A stretch of 64,000 nt of DNA, from assembly GCA_963921795.1 (NCBI GenBank), contig OY997653.1:25355773-25419772 (forward strand), written 5' to 3'. This document shows positions 6,901 to 9,739 of the stretch, one piece after another. Position 1 is the stretch's first letter, and each line of letters begins with the position of its first letter. This stretch comes from Nannobrachium achirus (Eukaryota > Chordata > Actinopteri > Myctophiformes > Myctophidae). Both the position numbers and the translations under genes were made by a program. The notes below the pieces were generated by a model, which was given only the letters and a program-made list of their open reading frames with translations, searched no databases and was not told where the DNA came from.

Positions 6901-9739
6901 CCCGCCGTCCTCCGCCGACTGGTCGGGCAGAGCCATGGCCACCAGCGTCATCAGACACACGGCCGACCGCTCCCCGCAGAACCCCGGCGGCGGCAACGGC
7001 AACAACATTCCTCCGGTCTGGCGCGCCGCCACAGACGCCTCTCCGCAGTTACCCACGAGCCCCTGCTTGGCGGCCTCTCCTCCCTCAGAACTGCCGCCCG
7101 TCCCCATGGAGACGGAGGCAACGCGGAGGAACGCCGCCGTTGCTGGTCATCCGGCGGAAGAGGAGGTGTGCTCTCCGTCTTGTCCGGAGGCCGCCACCCC
7201 CGCCGCCTCTCCTTCCCTGCGGCCCGCGTCGTCTTCCTCTCTCTGCTCCCCCTCCCCGACTCCTCCTCCTCCGCTGCTCTGCCAGGTAGGGCTGTCACCA
7301 TTTATACATTATACATTTTTACATGACGATTAATTGTCACTCAAATAATTGTGATTAACGATTTAATTGTGTTTTTGTTTTTGACAATTAGCCCTATTCA
7401 CGGCCCGCCCACTCAGCAACTTCCTGGTGCTGAAGTCATGTTTTGAAGGATAAAACCCTGCTAAAAGCCCATAGAGTTAACACAGAAATCGCAAATTTAA
7501 TGCAATTTCCGAATAGCAAAGTATGAAATACGGCTAGCATGATCAAGAACACAAGATAGTAAAAGGCACAAAGCATTATAATTTACTTTACCGTTCGAAA
7601 TAATGATTTGTTGGCTTTAAGTCCAGCAATTTCTGTATTAGTTTACCCTCCAAAGCACCAGGAAGTTGCTGAGAAATGTGCTGAGTGGGCGGGCCGTGTA
7701 TAGGGCTAATTACATTTCTGTTTGGCTTGTGGGCTTTGAAGTTGCAAATGGCAGATATGACACATAGAAACAAAGAAATGACTGACATAATATGACAACT
7801 TTGCACTTACTGTAAAAAAGAACATTGATAGCGGAAATAGCCGATCTACAAAATCACGAAAATGTTTGAAAATACTGTATATGAACACTTTTCAACATGC
7901 AAACGATTATGACGAATTATGACAAAATAATTGCGATTAGACGATTATCATGTAATAATTGTGACCGCCCTACTAACAGGTCTTCCCGGTGAGCGGGCGT
8001 GCGGGGATGATCTCCGCCTTCGTCCAGGCCCCGGTTCAAGTCCAGGCACAGAAGCAACTCCTCCCTCACCACCACCACTCCTCCAACTCCTCCTCCCCGC
8101 CCTCCGCCTGCACCCCCACCTCCTCCTCCTCGCCGCCCTTCCCCTCGGCCACGCCCATCCTGGTGGGCTCGCCGGTCCCCCAGGGCACCGTGATGTTCGT
8201 GGTCCCCCAGAACATGATGCACCACCACCACCACCAGACCCACTCCTCCTCGGCGGGCGCTCATCCCCACCACCACCAGACCGCCACCGTCATGACCCTG
8301 GGCAGCACCAAGCTCCTCCCGCTGGCCCCCGCTCCCGTTTACATGCCTTCCGGACCCACGGGGGCCGGCGCCCACTGCGGCGGCGGCGGTGCCGCCGCCC
8401 AGGCCGACTTCTCCCGCAGGAGGAACTACGTGTGTAACTTCGCCGGCTGTAAGAAGACCTACTTCAAGAGCTCACACCTCAAGGCTCACCTCCGCACACA
8501 CACAGGTAACGGTGATTCCAGCACGACTCCTGCAGAACATGCTATTAAGTCTGCAGTGAGGCAGTGGTTCTCAACCACATGATATTTTATTGGGATGACA
8601 TTTATTCAGATGACAGTGAAGTGACATTTTAAGACCTTTTTAATACCTAAAGAAAAGAAAGAAAGAAAGAAAAAATAGAAATGATCATTACTGCATCAAA
8701 AGGCGAGGCGTTGTGAGCTTGTAGATCTGCTATTTTCACATTATTCATCTGTCACTTAGATTATAAGTGCTTGTCAGGGTGGGAGGTCCCTAGTTCAAAT
8801 ATGATTCACGGGCCTGAAAAGGCTGTGACGTCATTCAGATAAGGTCACAGTGTGCGCGATGGCAGGGGTTGTGGCCAACGCATGCCGAGGTAGAGTATGT
8901 TAATATGATCTAACTAGCACAACTAACAGAGTGGTGGGAGTCTTCCTGCTCTGCCATTGAGAAATTTAGACCCTGGTGCCAGGACAGGTAGGACACCTAC
9001 TGGTCAACAATGTTATGGCATTATTTGAAGCAGATGGGAGATGACAATGGACATGAAACGGATGGATTATAGCGGTGTTTCTCAAACTTTCACATTTCAA
9101 GATCTCCCCTTAACTCTGACAGTGTAACGGGTCCATTTGGTTCCATTTGTACGCTGTCAGAGTTACAGACTTGTATGGGTCAATTTAGACCCCCAAAAAG
9201 CCCATGGAATCCACTTTGAGAATCACTGGATTATATCTTTCTGTGCACTTCATACTCATGGACGGTATTTATTCCCTGGTGTGTCCAATAAAGTTGAATT
9301 CTCCGAATGTTTTAGAAAGACACGTTTTTGAAGAGAAGACAAAAAGAAAACTTTTTTAAAGATGGACGTGTCAGTGACAGAATGTGTTTGTTTTTCTCTC
9401 TCTCGTCTTCCTGCAGGTGAGAAACCGTTCAGCTGCCACTGGGAGGGCTGCGACAAGAAGTTCGCCCGCTCCGACGAGCTCTCCCGCCACCGGCGCACGC
9501 ACACGGGCGAGAAGAAGTTTGTGTGCAACGTGTGCGACCGCCGCTTCATGCGGAGCGACCACCTGACCAAACACGCCCGCCGCCACATGACCGCCAAGCG
9601 GACGGCCATGGCCGCGCCGACCTCCACGACGTGGCCCTCCTCCTCCGCCGAGATGCGCGGCGACGCGCCAAACAAAGTGCCGCTGCCCACGGGCCAGTCG
9701 AGGGTCCCCGTCACCATGCTCGTACCCGCAACCAATTAA
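969..9739 (+). CDS. klf11: Krueppel-like factor 11 (TGF-beta-inducible early gene type), 5 coding exons
   Basis: Zinc-finger transcription factor that binds GC/GT boxes and usually represses through Sin3. Coding exons are 969-1019, 5655-5912, 6683-7285, 7980-8505 and 9417-9739; phases agree and give 586 aa. The N-terminus [17 protein letters not shown] resembles the short first exon of the KLF10/11 group. An [10 protein letters not shown] helix (exon 2) matches the Sin3-interacting motif and [12 protein letters not shown] the conserved segment after it. [12 protein letters not shown] (exon 3) matches the second repression region. Three C2H2 fingers lie at about 454-478, 484-508 and 514-536, with TGEKP/TGEKK linkers. 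The fingers ([20 protein letters not shown]) and the rrm2 neighbour favour KLF11 over KLF10. His/Ser/Pro-rich runs sit in exon 4. The boundary between exons 3 and 4 is an extra intron made of a transposon. Whether this is an 'a' or 'b' teleost copy cannot be told. Confidence 0.93.
1056..1126. mobile_element. Small palindrome element (shortened) with palindromic flanks
   Basis: The arms GCCGATCTACAA and TTGTAGATCTGC pair, and the pairing continues outward through GGCTTCTGAAAA on the left and TTTTCAGAAGCC on the right. The core is shortened compared with the 59-nt copies. It lies in klf11 intron 1. A half copy (right arm only) lies at about 1137-1157. Confidence 0.75.
1170..1216 (+). repeat. 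Second copy of klf11 exon-1 end plus 5' splice site
   Basis: The last bases of exon 1 with their donor (GGACAGTCCTCC...AGTCAG|GTAAGTTGC, 999-1030) recur at 1172-1203 with a few changes, and similarity continues into the intron (TTGTTCGTTTA). The copy keeps an intact GT donor at 1194. A small palindromic element and a half copy of it lie between the two donors. Confidence 0.8.
2208..3168. repeat. Cluster of GT, CA, TCTG and TC microsatellites
   Basis: klf11 intron 1 carries (GT)n at about 2208-2272, 2476-2572 and 2696-2767, (CA)n at 2340-2402 and 2922-2990, (TCTG)n at 2776-2822 and (TC)n at 3117-3168. All open frames here translate to CV, TH or SL repeats and are not coding. Confidence 0.97.
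3828..3892. mobile_element. Small TA palindrome element
   Basis: The left arm TAGCAGATCTACAAGCTCAC and right arm GAGCTTGTACATTAG face each other around a GC-rich loop. It is embedded in a repeat that begins with TTTAACCCAATAAAACCGGG at about 3774. It lies in klf11 intron 1. Confidence 0.7.
5133..5416. mobile_element. hAT/Charlie-like MITE carrying a damaged palindrome element
   Basis: The ends CAGTGGTTCTCAAACTTTTT and GGTTGAGAACCACCG are inverted repeats of the hAT/Charlie type. A partial copy of the small palindrome (left arm truncated) sits at 5308-5357. The same longer repeat recurs near 46640-47190 and, inverted, at 62775-63310. I see no convincing 8-bp target duplication, so the boundaries are approximate. 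Confidence 0.6.
5930..5982. repeat. GCAC/CA microsatellite just after the klf11 exon-2 donor
   Basis: GCGCGCAC units grade into (CA)n starting about 18 bases after the exon-2 donor at 5913. The frame reads through into an Arg/His/Thr-rich tail if the intron is retained. Confidence 0.95.
6142..6324 (+). mobile_element. tRNA-derived SINE
   Basis: It begins GGGGCGCCCGCTGGCCTAC and shows an A-box-like stretch (TGGCCTACTGGTCCAGGCG) and a B-box-like stretch (GGTTTGATTCC). The tail TCAATAAAGACAAAAAAGCC is A-rich. A second, internally deleted copy lies in reverse at 42984-43093. It is in klf11 intron 2. Confidence 0.7.
6471..6630. repeat. CA microsatellite in klf11 intron 2
   Basis: A long interrupted (CA)n array ends about 50 bases before the exon-3 acceptor at 6681-6682. 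The peptides read across it are poly-His/Thr artefacts. Confidence 0.96.
7287..7972. mobile_element. hAT-like MITE forming the whole of klf11 intron 3
   Basis: The termini TAGGGCTGTCAC and GTGACCGCCCTA are inverted repeats. Relatives with the same ends and interior lie at 55836-56261 and 59230-59659, both with perfect 8-bp target duplications. Here the element is flanked by CTGCCAGG (7279-7286) and CTAACAGG (7973-7980), which match at 6 of 8 bases. The intron is 7286-7979, so splicing removes the element plus exactly one duplication copy. A second MITE (7390-7707) is nested inside, and a half copy of the 59-nt palindrome is at about 7836-7857. Retaining the intron meets an in-frame TAA before the zinc fingers. 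Confidence 0.88.
7390..7707. mobile_element. MITE with AGCCCTATTCACG ends nested in the intron element
   Basis: The terminal inverted repeats are about 30 bp (AGCCCTATTCACGGCCCG and its complement with few changes). It is flanked by AATT on both sides. The uninterrupted sequence is seen in the relative at about 59320 (GATAATTACATTT), which confirms a 4-bp AATT duplication. A second copy is at 60020-60322. Confidence 0.85.
8702..8738. mobile_element. Right half of the small palindrome element
   Basis: GGCGTTGTGAGCTTGTAGAT followed by CTGCTATTTTCAC matches the right arm of the 59-nt palindrome; no left arm is present. It is in klf11 intron 4. Confidence 0.7.
9073..9228. mobile_element. hAT-like MITE, 156 bp
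   Basis: The ends CGGTGTTTCTCAAACTTTC and CCACTTTGAGAATCACTG are inverted repeats. The flanks GATTATAG (9065-9072) and GATTATAT (9229-9236) are an 8-bp duplication with one mismatch. The interior carries the TCCATTTGGTTCCATTTGTA motif repeated elsewhere in the window. It is in klf11 intron 4. Confidence 0.8.

Follow-up and report, generated by a model that had tools for sequence, protein, structure and literature searches.

Intron gain in vertebrates has been described as rare and its mechanism as obscure (PMC3151243; PMC12357937), with a higher intron turnover in teleosts (PMC12357937). The closest precedent for the case described here is intron 3 of slc26a2 in notothenioid fishes, in which one element, NTE-1, was followed by another, NTE-2 (PMC12357937). 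Introners, which occur in algae, in protists, in fungi and in a small number of animals, have been reported in 175 of 3,325 genomes, with two groups only among animals and land plants (PMC9860276), and transposon-made introns have been reported in Oryza, Drosophila, Oikopleura and Zea (PMC3443670). A survey of human intron gain was not designed to pick up gains made in this way (PMC12124190). We analysed a stretch of 64,000 nucleotides (the window) from the myctophid fish Nannobrachium achirus (assembly GCA_963921795.1, contig OY997653.1, positions 25,355,773 to 25,419,772 of the forward strand). At about 5.6-9.7 kb of the window lies a gene that, by eye and from what we recall of its relatives, we take to be klf11, and in which the only Pfam matches are C2H2 fingers. 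Judging from the sequence, we consider it highly probable that one of its introns is an introner-like gain, made by a hAT-like miniature inverted-repeat transposable element (MITE) with splice sites formed by the target-site copies and the element end, and that other genes have received introns from this family in the same way.

The intron, of 694 bp and in phase 0 (7286-7979, + strand), consists of the element (7287-7972) and exactly one copy of an 8-bp target duplication. The left copy, CTGCCAGG, lies at 7279-7286 and its final G, followed by the first T of the element, forms the donor (CCAG^GTAGGG, with the caret marking the splice junction); the right copy, CTAACAGG, at 7973-7980, holds the acceptor AG and also the base with which the downstream exon part opens (CTAACAG^GTC). 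These coordinates and bases are as the original prediction had them, including the 6/8 match between the two copies, and random octamers with equal bases reach at least 6/8 with a chance of 0.004. The outer ends of the element, with terminal inverted repeats (TIRs) TAGGGCTGTCAC / GTGACCGCCCTA, likewise agree with the family alignment and its 8-bp duplications. The idea of a single MITE, however, holds only for those outer ends: self-comparison revealed the 686-bp element to be composite, positions ~100-425 of it being a different inverted-repeat element (AGCCCTATTCACGG..., ~7390-7707, +) flanked by AATT at 7386-7389 and 7708-7711, with its inverted repeat at 7386-7425/7672-7711, and the outer MITE by itself measures ~364 bp. 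In a whole-element search of the genome, the 39 best matches besides klf11 (from the best 40 of 4,810 candidates) were all to the nested part, at 91-94% identity, and a stand-alone copy of it, also flanked by AATT, is present in the window at 60020-60322 (+). The nested element was seen in none of 20 other aligned members of the MITE family, which argues that the outer MITE probably made the intron and that the nested element lengthened it later.

The resemblance to slc26a2 is close. There, too, a coding exon of a fish was interrupted by an inverted-repeat element, with gt-ag lying within direct and inverted repeats, and a nested second element lengthened the intron, so that a two-step history was proposed (PMC12357937). 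The slc26a2 element begins with tgt, ends with aca and is flanked by a 4-nt repeat, whereas the klf11 MITE has TAGGG ends and 8-bp repeats, and that study concerns two introns of one gene whereas several genes of one genome are involved here (PMC12357937). With this fish case published, klf11 is not the first of its kind in a vertebrate. Apart from slc26a2 (PMC12357937), a literature search that covered few subscription journals found no demonstrated transposon-made intron in a fish, and no report of one family making introns in many genes of a vertebrate.

The boundaries of the MITE are fixed independently of klf11 by the 8-bp duplications found across its family. When the right part of the outer element was searched against the whole genome, copies turned up on many contigs (best 40 of 1,418 candidates), and 29 loci besides klf11 (L022-L050) were fetched, with ends located in 23 and none found in six. 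Two further copies lie in the window, at 55836-56261 (-), flanked twice by GTGGATGG (+ strand letters), and at 59230-59659 (+), flanked twice by TTAGGACT; both duplications are perfect, as had been claimed for them. Among the resulting 25 copies with both ends, the duplication is perfect in 15, matches at least 6/8 in 20 and matches 3/8 or less in five. Family members are 327-430 bp long and have TIRs TAGGGCTGTCAC / GTGACAGCCCTA with few changes among the listed copies. The TIR consensus of hAT elements begins T/CAGGG, which these ends fit, and by the length of its target duplication and its TIRs, the features on which the superfamily assignment is based, the family would be a hAT-like MITE. 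The klf11 copy is 6.4% diverged from the family consensus (Kimura two-parameter distance) and 20 others are 3.4-8.1% diverged, so that the klf11 copy is not young and the gain can be called recent, as it had been, only in a relative sense. Both other window copies occupy introns of one gene, the second of two tandem genes (~41777-48635 and ~53917-62248, +) that we take by eye to be hsp90; its introns also hold the stand-alone copy of the nested-type element.

The exon that received the MITE is unbroken elsewhere. Human KLF11 and KLF10 have one exon at this place. In the same genome, a second klf11-like gene (L011, on the minus strand at C20:24194983-24195984, with 45% identity across the complete query exon) carries the homologous exon without interruption, in an open frame of 356 residues that reads ...QIICQMFPVSSHSGIISAF... 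/ ...SSPQIICQMFPVSSHSGIISAF..., and the equivalent of the insertion site there is ATC TGC CAG ATG TTC, that is, CTGCCAGA once. In klf11, then, it is the left copy that preserves the conserved letters, and the drift has occurred in the right one. The original prediction had expected the ancestral site to read as a single copy, which is what this paralogue has, and its unbroken exon fits an intron-free ancestor.

If the intron-making mechanism is real, other copies of the family with AG^G targets are expected in coding exons. The pattern CAGGTAGGGCTGTCACVA, which captures copies preceded by CAGG, occurs 272 times in the genome, and the first 100 listed were examined, on contigs C1-C9 (klf11, on C16, is outside this set); copies preceded by CAGC, for which a count only was made, number 210. 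For 60 of the loci (L051-L110) the element and right flank were available, and for 40 (L111-L150) the left flank only, four of them with a piece of the right flank. A script located both ends in 34 of the 60 and missed the coding cases L059, L066, L074, L109 and L110, which were found by reading by hand six right flanks of the 26 end-less loci, picked because the left flank resembled coding sequence. Eight of the 100 copies have flanks that share one frame once the element and one target copy are removed. The target copies match 8/8 in L093 (C2H2 zinc finger) and L097 (RING and B-box); the right copy has one inserted base in L109 (PRY-SPRY) and one insertion plus one change in L074 (F-box-protein-like by eye, with no Pfam match); and in L140 (C1q) the copy is 8/8, but stands 10 bases beyond the element end. 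The remaining three are L059 (leucine-rich-repeat-like by eye, no Pfam match; copy 8/8, but with a right inverted repeat that cannot be recognised), L066 (no Pfam match; the insert is longer and composite, and the copies on its two sides match 8/8) and L110 (no Pfam match; copy 5/8). The eight loci are at G000:C3:69172385 (L093), C4:47050293 (L097), C5:58637378 (L109), C2:52001015 (L074), C8:46491093 (L140), C6:18493303 (L110), C1:61461471 (L059) and C2:12914473 (L066). The Pfam domains C2H2, RING and B-box, PRY-SPRY and C1q span the junction or stand on either side of it, and klf11 and all eight candidates match the family consensus, the weakest being L059 (73% over 88 bases), with L140 compared by its right part only. 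Paralogues, sought for L059, L066, L074, L097, L109 and L140, run unbroken across the junction for four of the eight loci, L109 (67% identity, C5:59867979, with most listed B30.2 relatives likewise continuous), L097 (54%, C6:63861876), L074 (48%, C8:63756901) and L140 (46%, C21:34887989), and weakly for a fifth, L059 (35%, C2:55248215). At L112, L120 and L142 the left flanks look coding, and no joined exon was seen in them.

The four drifted right target copies (klf11, L074, L109 and L110) all end in AACAG or GACAG (CTAACAG, CTTAACAG, CGGAACAG and CTGACAG), which may reflect convergence near the acceptor or may be chance. L103 (G000:C5:7030673, -), tallied as non-coding, has a perfect target duplication, a lost TIR AG and open joined flanks, and could lie in an untranslated or a coding exon.

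Orientation serves as a control for the coding cases. With a codon score threshold of at least 15, the left flank was coding in the CAGG-splice sense in 17 of the 100 copies and in the opposite sense in four (17:4, P 0.004), and scored below 15 in both senses in the other 79. The four opposite-sense sites are L105, L081, L116 and L092. The score suggested L105 and L081 as antisense interruptions of exons, and these were rejected, since inspection by eye places the element within an intron at both. L092 is a possible interruption in reverse orientation, in which the duplication in gene sense ends GAGG (7/8) and would form AG^G, with the donor GAG^GTAAGC; its joined frame gave no Pfam match. Counting in-frame interruptions, sense against reverse orientation, gives 8:1 (one-sided P 0.02).

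A second line of evidence comes from the right end of the element. The consensus right TIR GTGACAGCCCTA contains an AG 12 nt ahead of the AG in the target copy (5 nt of element and 7 nt of target copy), a spacing by which even the use of this decoy would preserve the frame. In klf11 the right TIR (7961-7972, +) has changed from GACAG to GACCG and this competing AG is gone. Of the seven intron copies with a recognisable right end, four have lost it (klf11 GACCG, L109 GACGG, L074 GACGG, L097 GACAA) and three have kept it (L093, L110, L140). Of 46 comparison copies, a set that excludes both the new introns and the insertions at old donors, 43 have this AG intact and three have lost it (4/7 vs 3/46; Fisher P 0.004). 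The mechanism put forward in the original prediction is backed by this loss and by the further coding-exon copies.

The klf11 frame itself bears on whether the MITE might merely disrupt the gene, as a null or polymorphic insertion in a dying copy whose function has passed to the paralogue, with the splice-site letters there by chance. The paralogue on C20 has intact exons, and loss of klf11 could be tolerated; moreover, if the intron is kept, a stop follows 15 codons beyond the junction and the protein is cut short. Yet exon 2, in the numbering of this analysis (5655-5912; acceptor CCCCACAG^GTC, donor CTG^GTGAGG), the upstream half of exon 3 (6683-7285, open up to ...PPLLCQ and ending CCAG^GTAGGG), its downstream half (7980-8505, running to the first zinc finger and matched by the unbroken paralogue exon) and the last exon (9417-9739, with the zinc fingers, their C2H2 matches and the stop) are all open on the + strand and join into a single frame of 569 codons plus the terminal stop, the first coding exon being outside this set of four. 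The 849-nt frame downstream of the junction is intact, while the element has diverged by 6.4% with several indels. When neutral decay was simulated at the divergence of the element, substitutions alone broke this frame in 74% of runs, and a quarter of the rough indel rate of the element was enough to break it in more than 99%; that rate is a by-eye estimate from an alignment with a mixed consensus, and only the direction of the result is safe. With the loss of the competing AG and the orientation bias among the other coding-exon copies also speaking against it, disruption of klf11 seems an improbable account. Restoration of the reading frame, as originally described, is real, but it follows automatically for any transposable element inserted into a coding exon and by itself shows insertion into an exon rather than splicing, so that we rejected it as proof of splicing. 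The intron would presumably be removed by the spliceosome and, direct proof of splicing excepted, the case for intron gain in klf11 is well supported by its sequence.

A different objection concerns where the acceptor lies. The element might be removed at the AG of the right TIR (GACAG^CCCTA), adding 12 nt, or four codons, to the message, with the target-copy AG secondary. The two consensus AGs are in frame with each other, and a 12-bp gain of this kind is known from the introners of Aureococcus (PMC9860276). However, the TIR AG is mutated in klf11, L097, L109 and L074 and is unusable there now, which leaves very little room for this account as the general one; use of the TIR AG at the time of insertion, and in L093, L110 and L140, is possible.

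Elsewhere the family has also reached donors that look older than the element. At L060, L076, L077, L099, L108 and L146 the same MITE sits exactly at exon-intron donors whose empty site itself contains CAG^GT; the target copy includes CAGG, and the original start of the intron has given way to the element end, by which CAG^GTAGGG is formed again. At L054 and L145 the donor likewise looks older and the following exon has its own acceptor, and at all eight loci the element end provides the start of the intron. Such loci lend some plausibility to an older klf11 intron in which the MITE landed later, an account we regard as ruled out for practical purposes, since the klf11 intron equals the element plus exactly one 8-bp target copy with no bases left over and the paralogue exon is unbroken.

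Several points weigh against intron gain by this MITE family. At klf11 the target copies match at only 6/8, and two changes in seven intronic bases exceed what the 6% divergence of the element leads one to expect, a number that is high though possible. Selecting for CAGG gives every case a donor by ascertainment, and the orientation comparison is the sole control; hand reading of right flanks was confined to loci whose left flank had a coding appearance in the sense direction, which made the orientation count neither blind nor fully even, and with the five better cases alone (L093, L097, L109, L074 and L140) the ratio is 5:1 (P 0.11). The AG comparison required a recognisable right end of the control copies, which favours an intact AG, and when loss was tallied by mismatches the difference was not significant (4/11 vs 3/21, P 0.16). 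The right ends of L059, L066 and L110 are imperfect and the L140 element ends 10 bases before its target copy; the paralogue search with L066 gave, besides itself, only weak matches with E above 2. Several of the additional cases belong to large gene families (TRIM, B30.2, zinc finger, C1q), in which broken copies may be common.

Based on these data, we can outline how the klf11 intron may have arisen. The sequence shows that a hAT-like MITE of ~0.36 kb inserted into the large third coding exon at CTGCCAGG and duplicated 8 bp, as it also shows the unbroken paralogue, the nested element and the further coding-exon cases. At the left junction the target copy, ending AG^G, would have joined the TAGGG start of the element to give CAG^GTAGGG as the 5' splice site, with CAG^G in the right target copy serving as the 3' splice site, and excision of the element with one target copy would not alter the coding sequence. 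The intron would afterwards have been lengthened by another element landing in the MITE, and the competing AG in the right TIR would have been destroyed by a base change; this order of insertion, nesting and AG loss is the one the klf11 sequence suggests. The same family would have repeated the process in other genes where the target copy happened to end in AG^G. The wider pattern makes it likely that introns have been gained repeatedly by this route in a vertebrate. We lean, with less assurance than for klf11 and its counterparts, towards a stronger statement, that the family is a recurrent vertebrate intron maker that has split half a dozen or more coding exons into exon-intron-exon, and perhaps ~20 among the 272 copies (an extrapolation from eight in the first 100 on the list, which would rise if other AG^G targets were counted), followed by selection against the competing AG.

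The route proposed originally was that of algal introner elements, and its geometry does agree with klf11. Introners are non-autonomous DNA transposons that become introns, with the target duplication giving one or both splice sites and the length of the mRNA mostly unchanged (PMC9860276). By sequence, klf11 and the eight candidates amount to a set of similar introns scattered over unrelated sites of a single genome, and the geometry of klf11 and the further loci would place the splice sites in the target copies and the element end. The trait of copies being found preferentially as introns is absent: 79 of the 100 copies score below 15 for coding in both senses of the left flank, and for this reason we do not file the family as an Introner. 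It is an ordinary MITE able to make introns, which works like an introner, and it differs from Introners in its teleost host and in the position of most sampled copies away from coding sequence (PMC9860276).

Other systems share parts of this scheme. The novel introns of fish melanocortin receptors were also gained in ray-finned fish at CAG^G-like sites, with transposons a possible cause and with repeats, hAT fragments included, in some of them; they are much older, at 190-320 million years, and are not reported there to consist of one element plus a target duplication (PMC3151243). In the AGGT-insertion model the target duplication gives both AG^G-type sites, whereas here AG^G is all that is needed from the target, the T of GT being supplied by the end of the element (PMC3443670). 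Maize Ds, a hAT element with 8-bp duplications, is reportedly spliced from transcripts after insertion into coding exons (as Giroux is said to have described in 1994), although those cases are mutant plant alleles rather than fixed introns in many genes. A simple rule gives a prediction of the insertions that exons tolerate, namely those in which a target copy ending AG^G meets the TAGGG end of an element. With older and younger copies in one genome, the later steps (growth by nesting, drift of the target copy and loss of the decoy AG) become datable and comparable, and the origin of introns becomes directly testable in an animal group from which RNA-seq data are readily obtained.

The surroundings of klf11 contain further repeats. 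Three tandem units of 45 bp lie at ~9834-9968, ~95 bases past the klf11 stop codon, and a repeated stretch (...ggtccatttggttccatttgtacactgtcagagtta...) occurs in several copies around the gene (~4740-5630, ~9070-9240) and is probably another short element. The gene next to klf11, which by eye we take to be rrm2, has in its region three copies, ~98.7% alike, of the C/D-box small nucleolar RNA SNORD94 (Rfam; 17505-17642, 18011-18148 and 20600-20737, +); together with a diverged fourth SNORD94-like stretch (~80% alike, ~17053-17199) they form a small local expansion.

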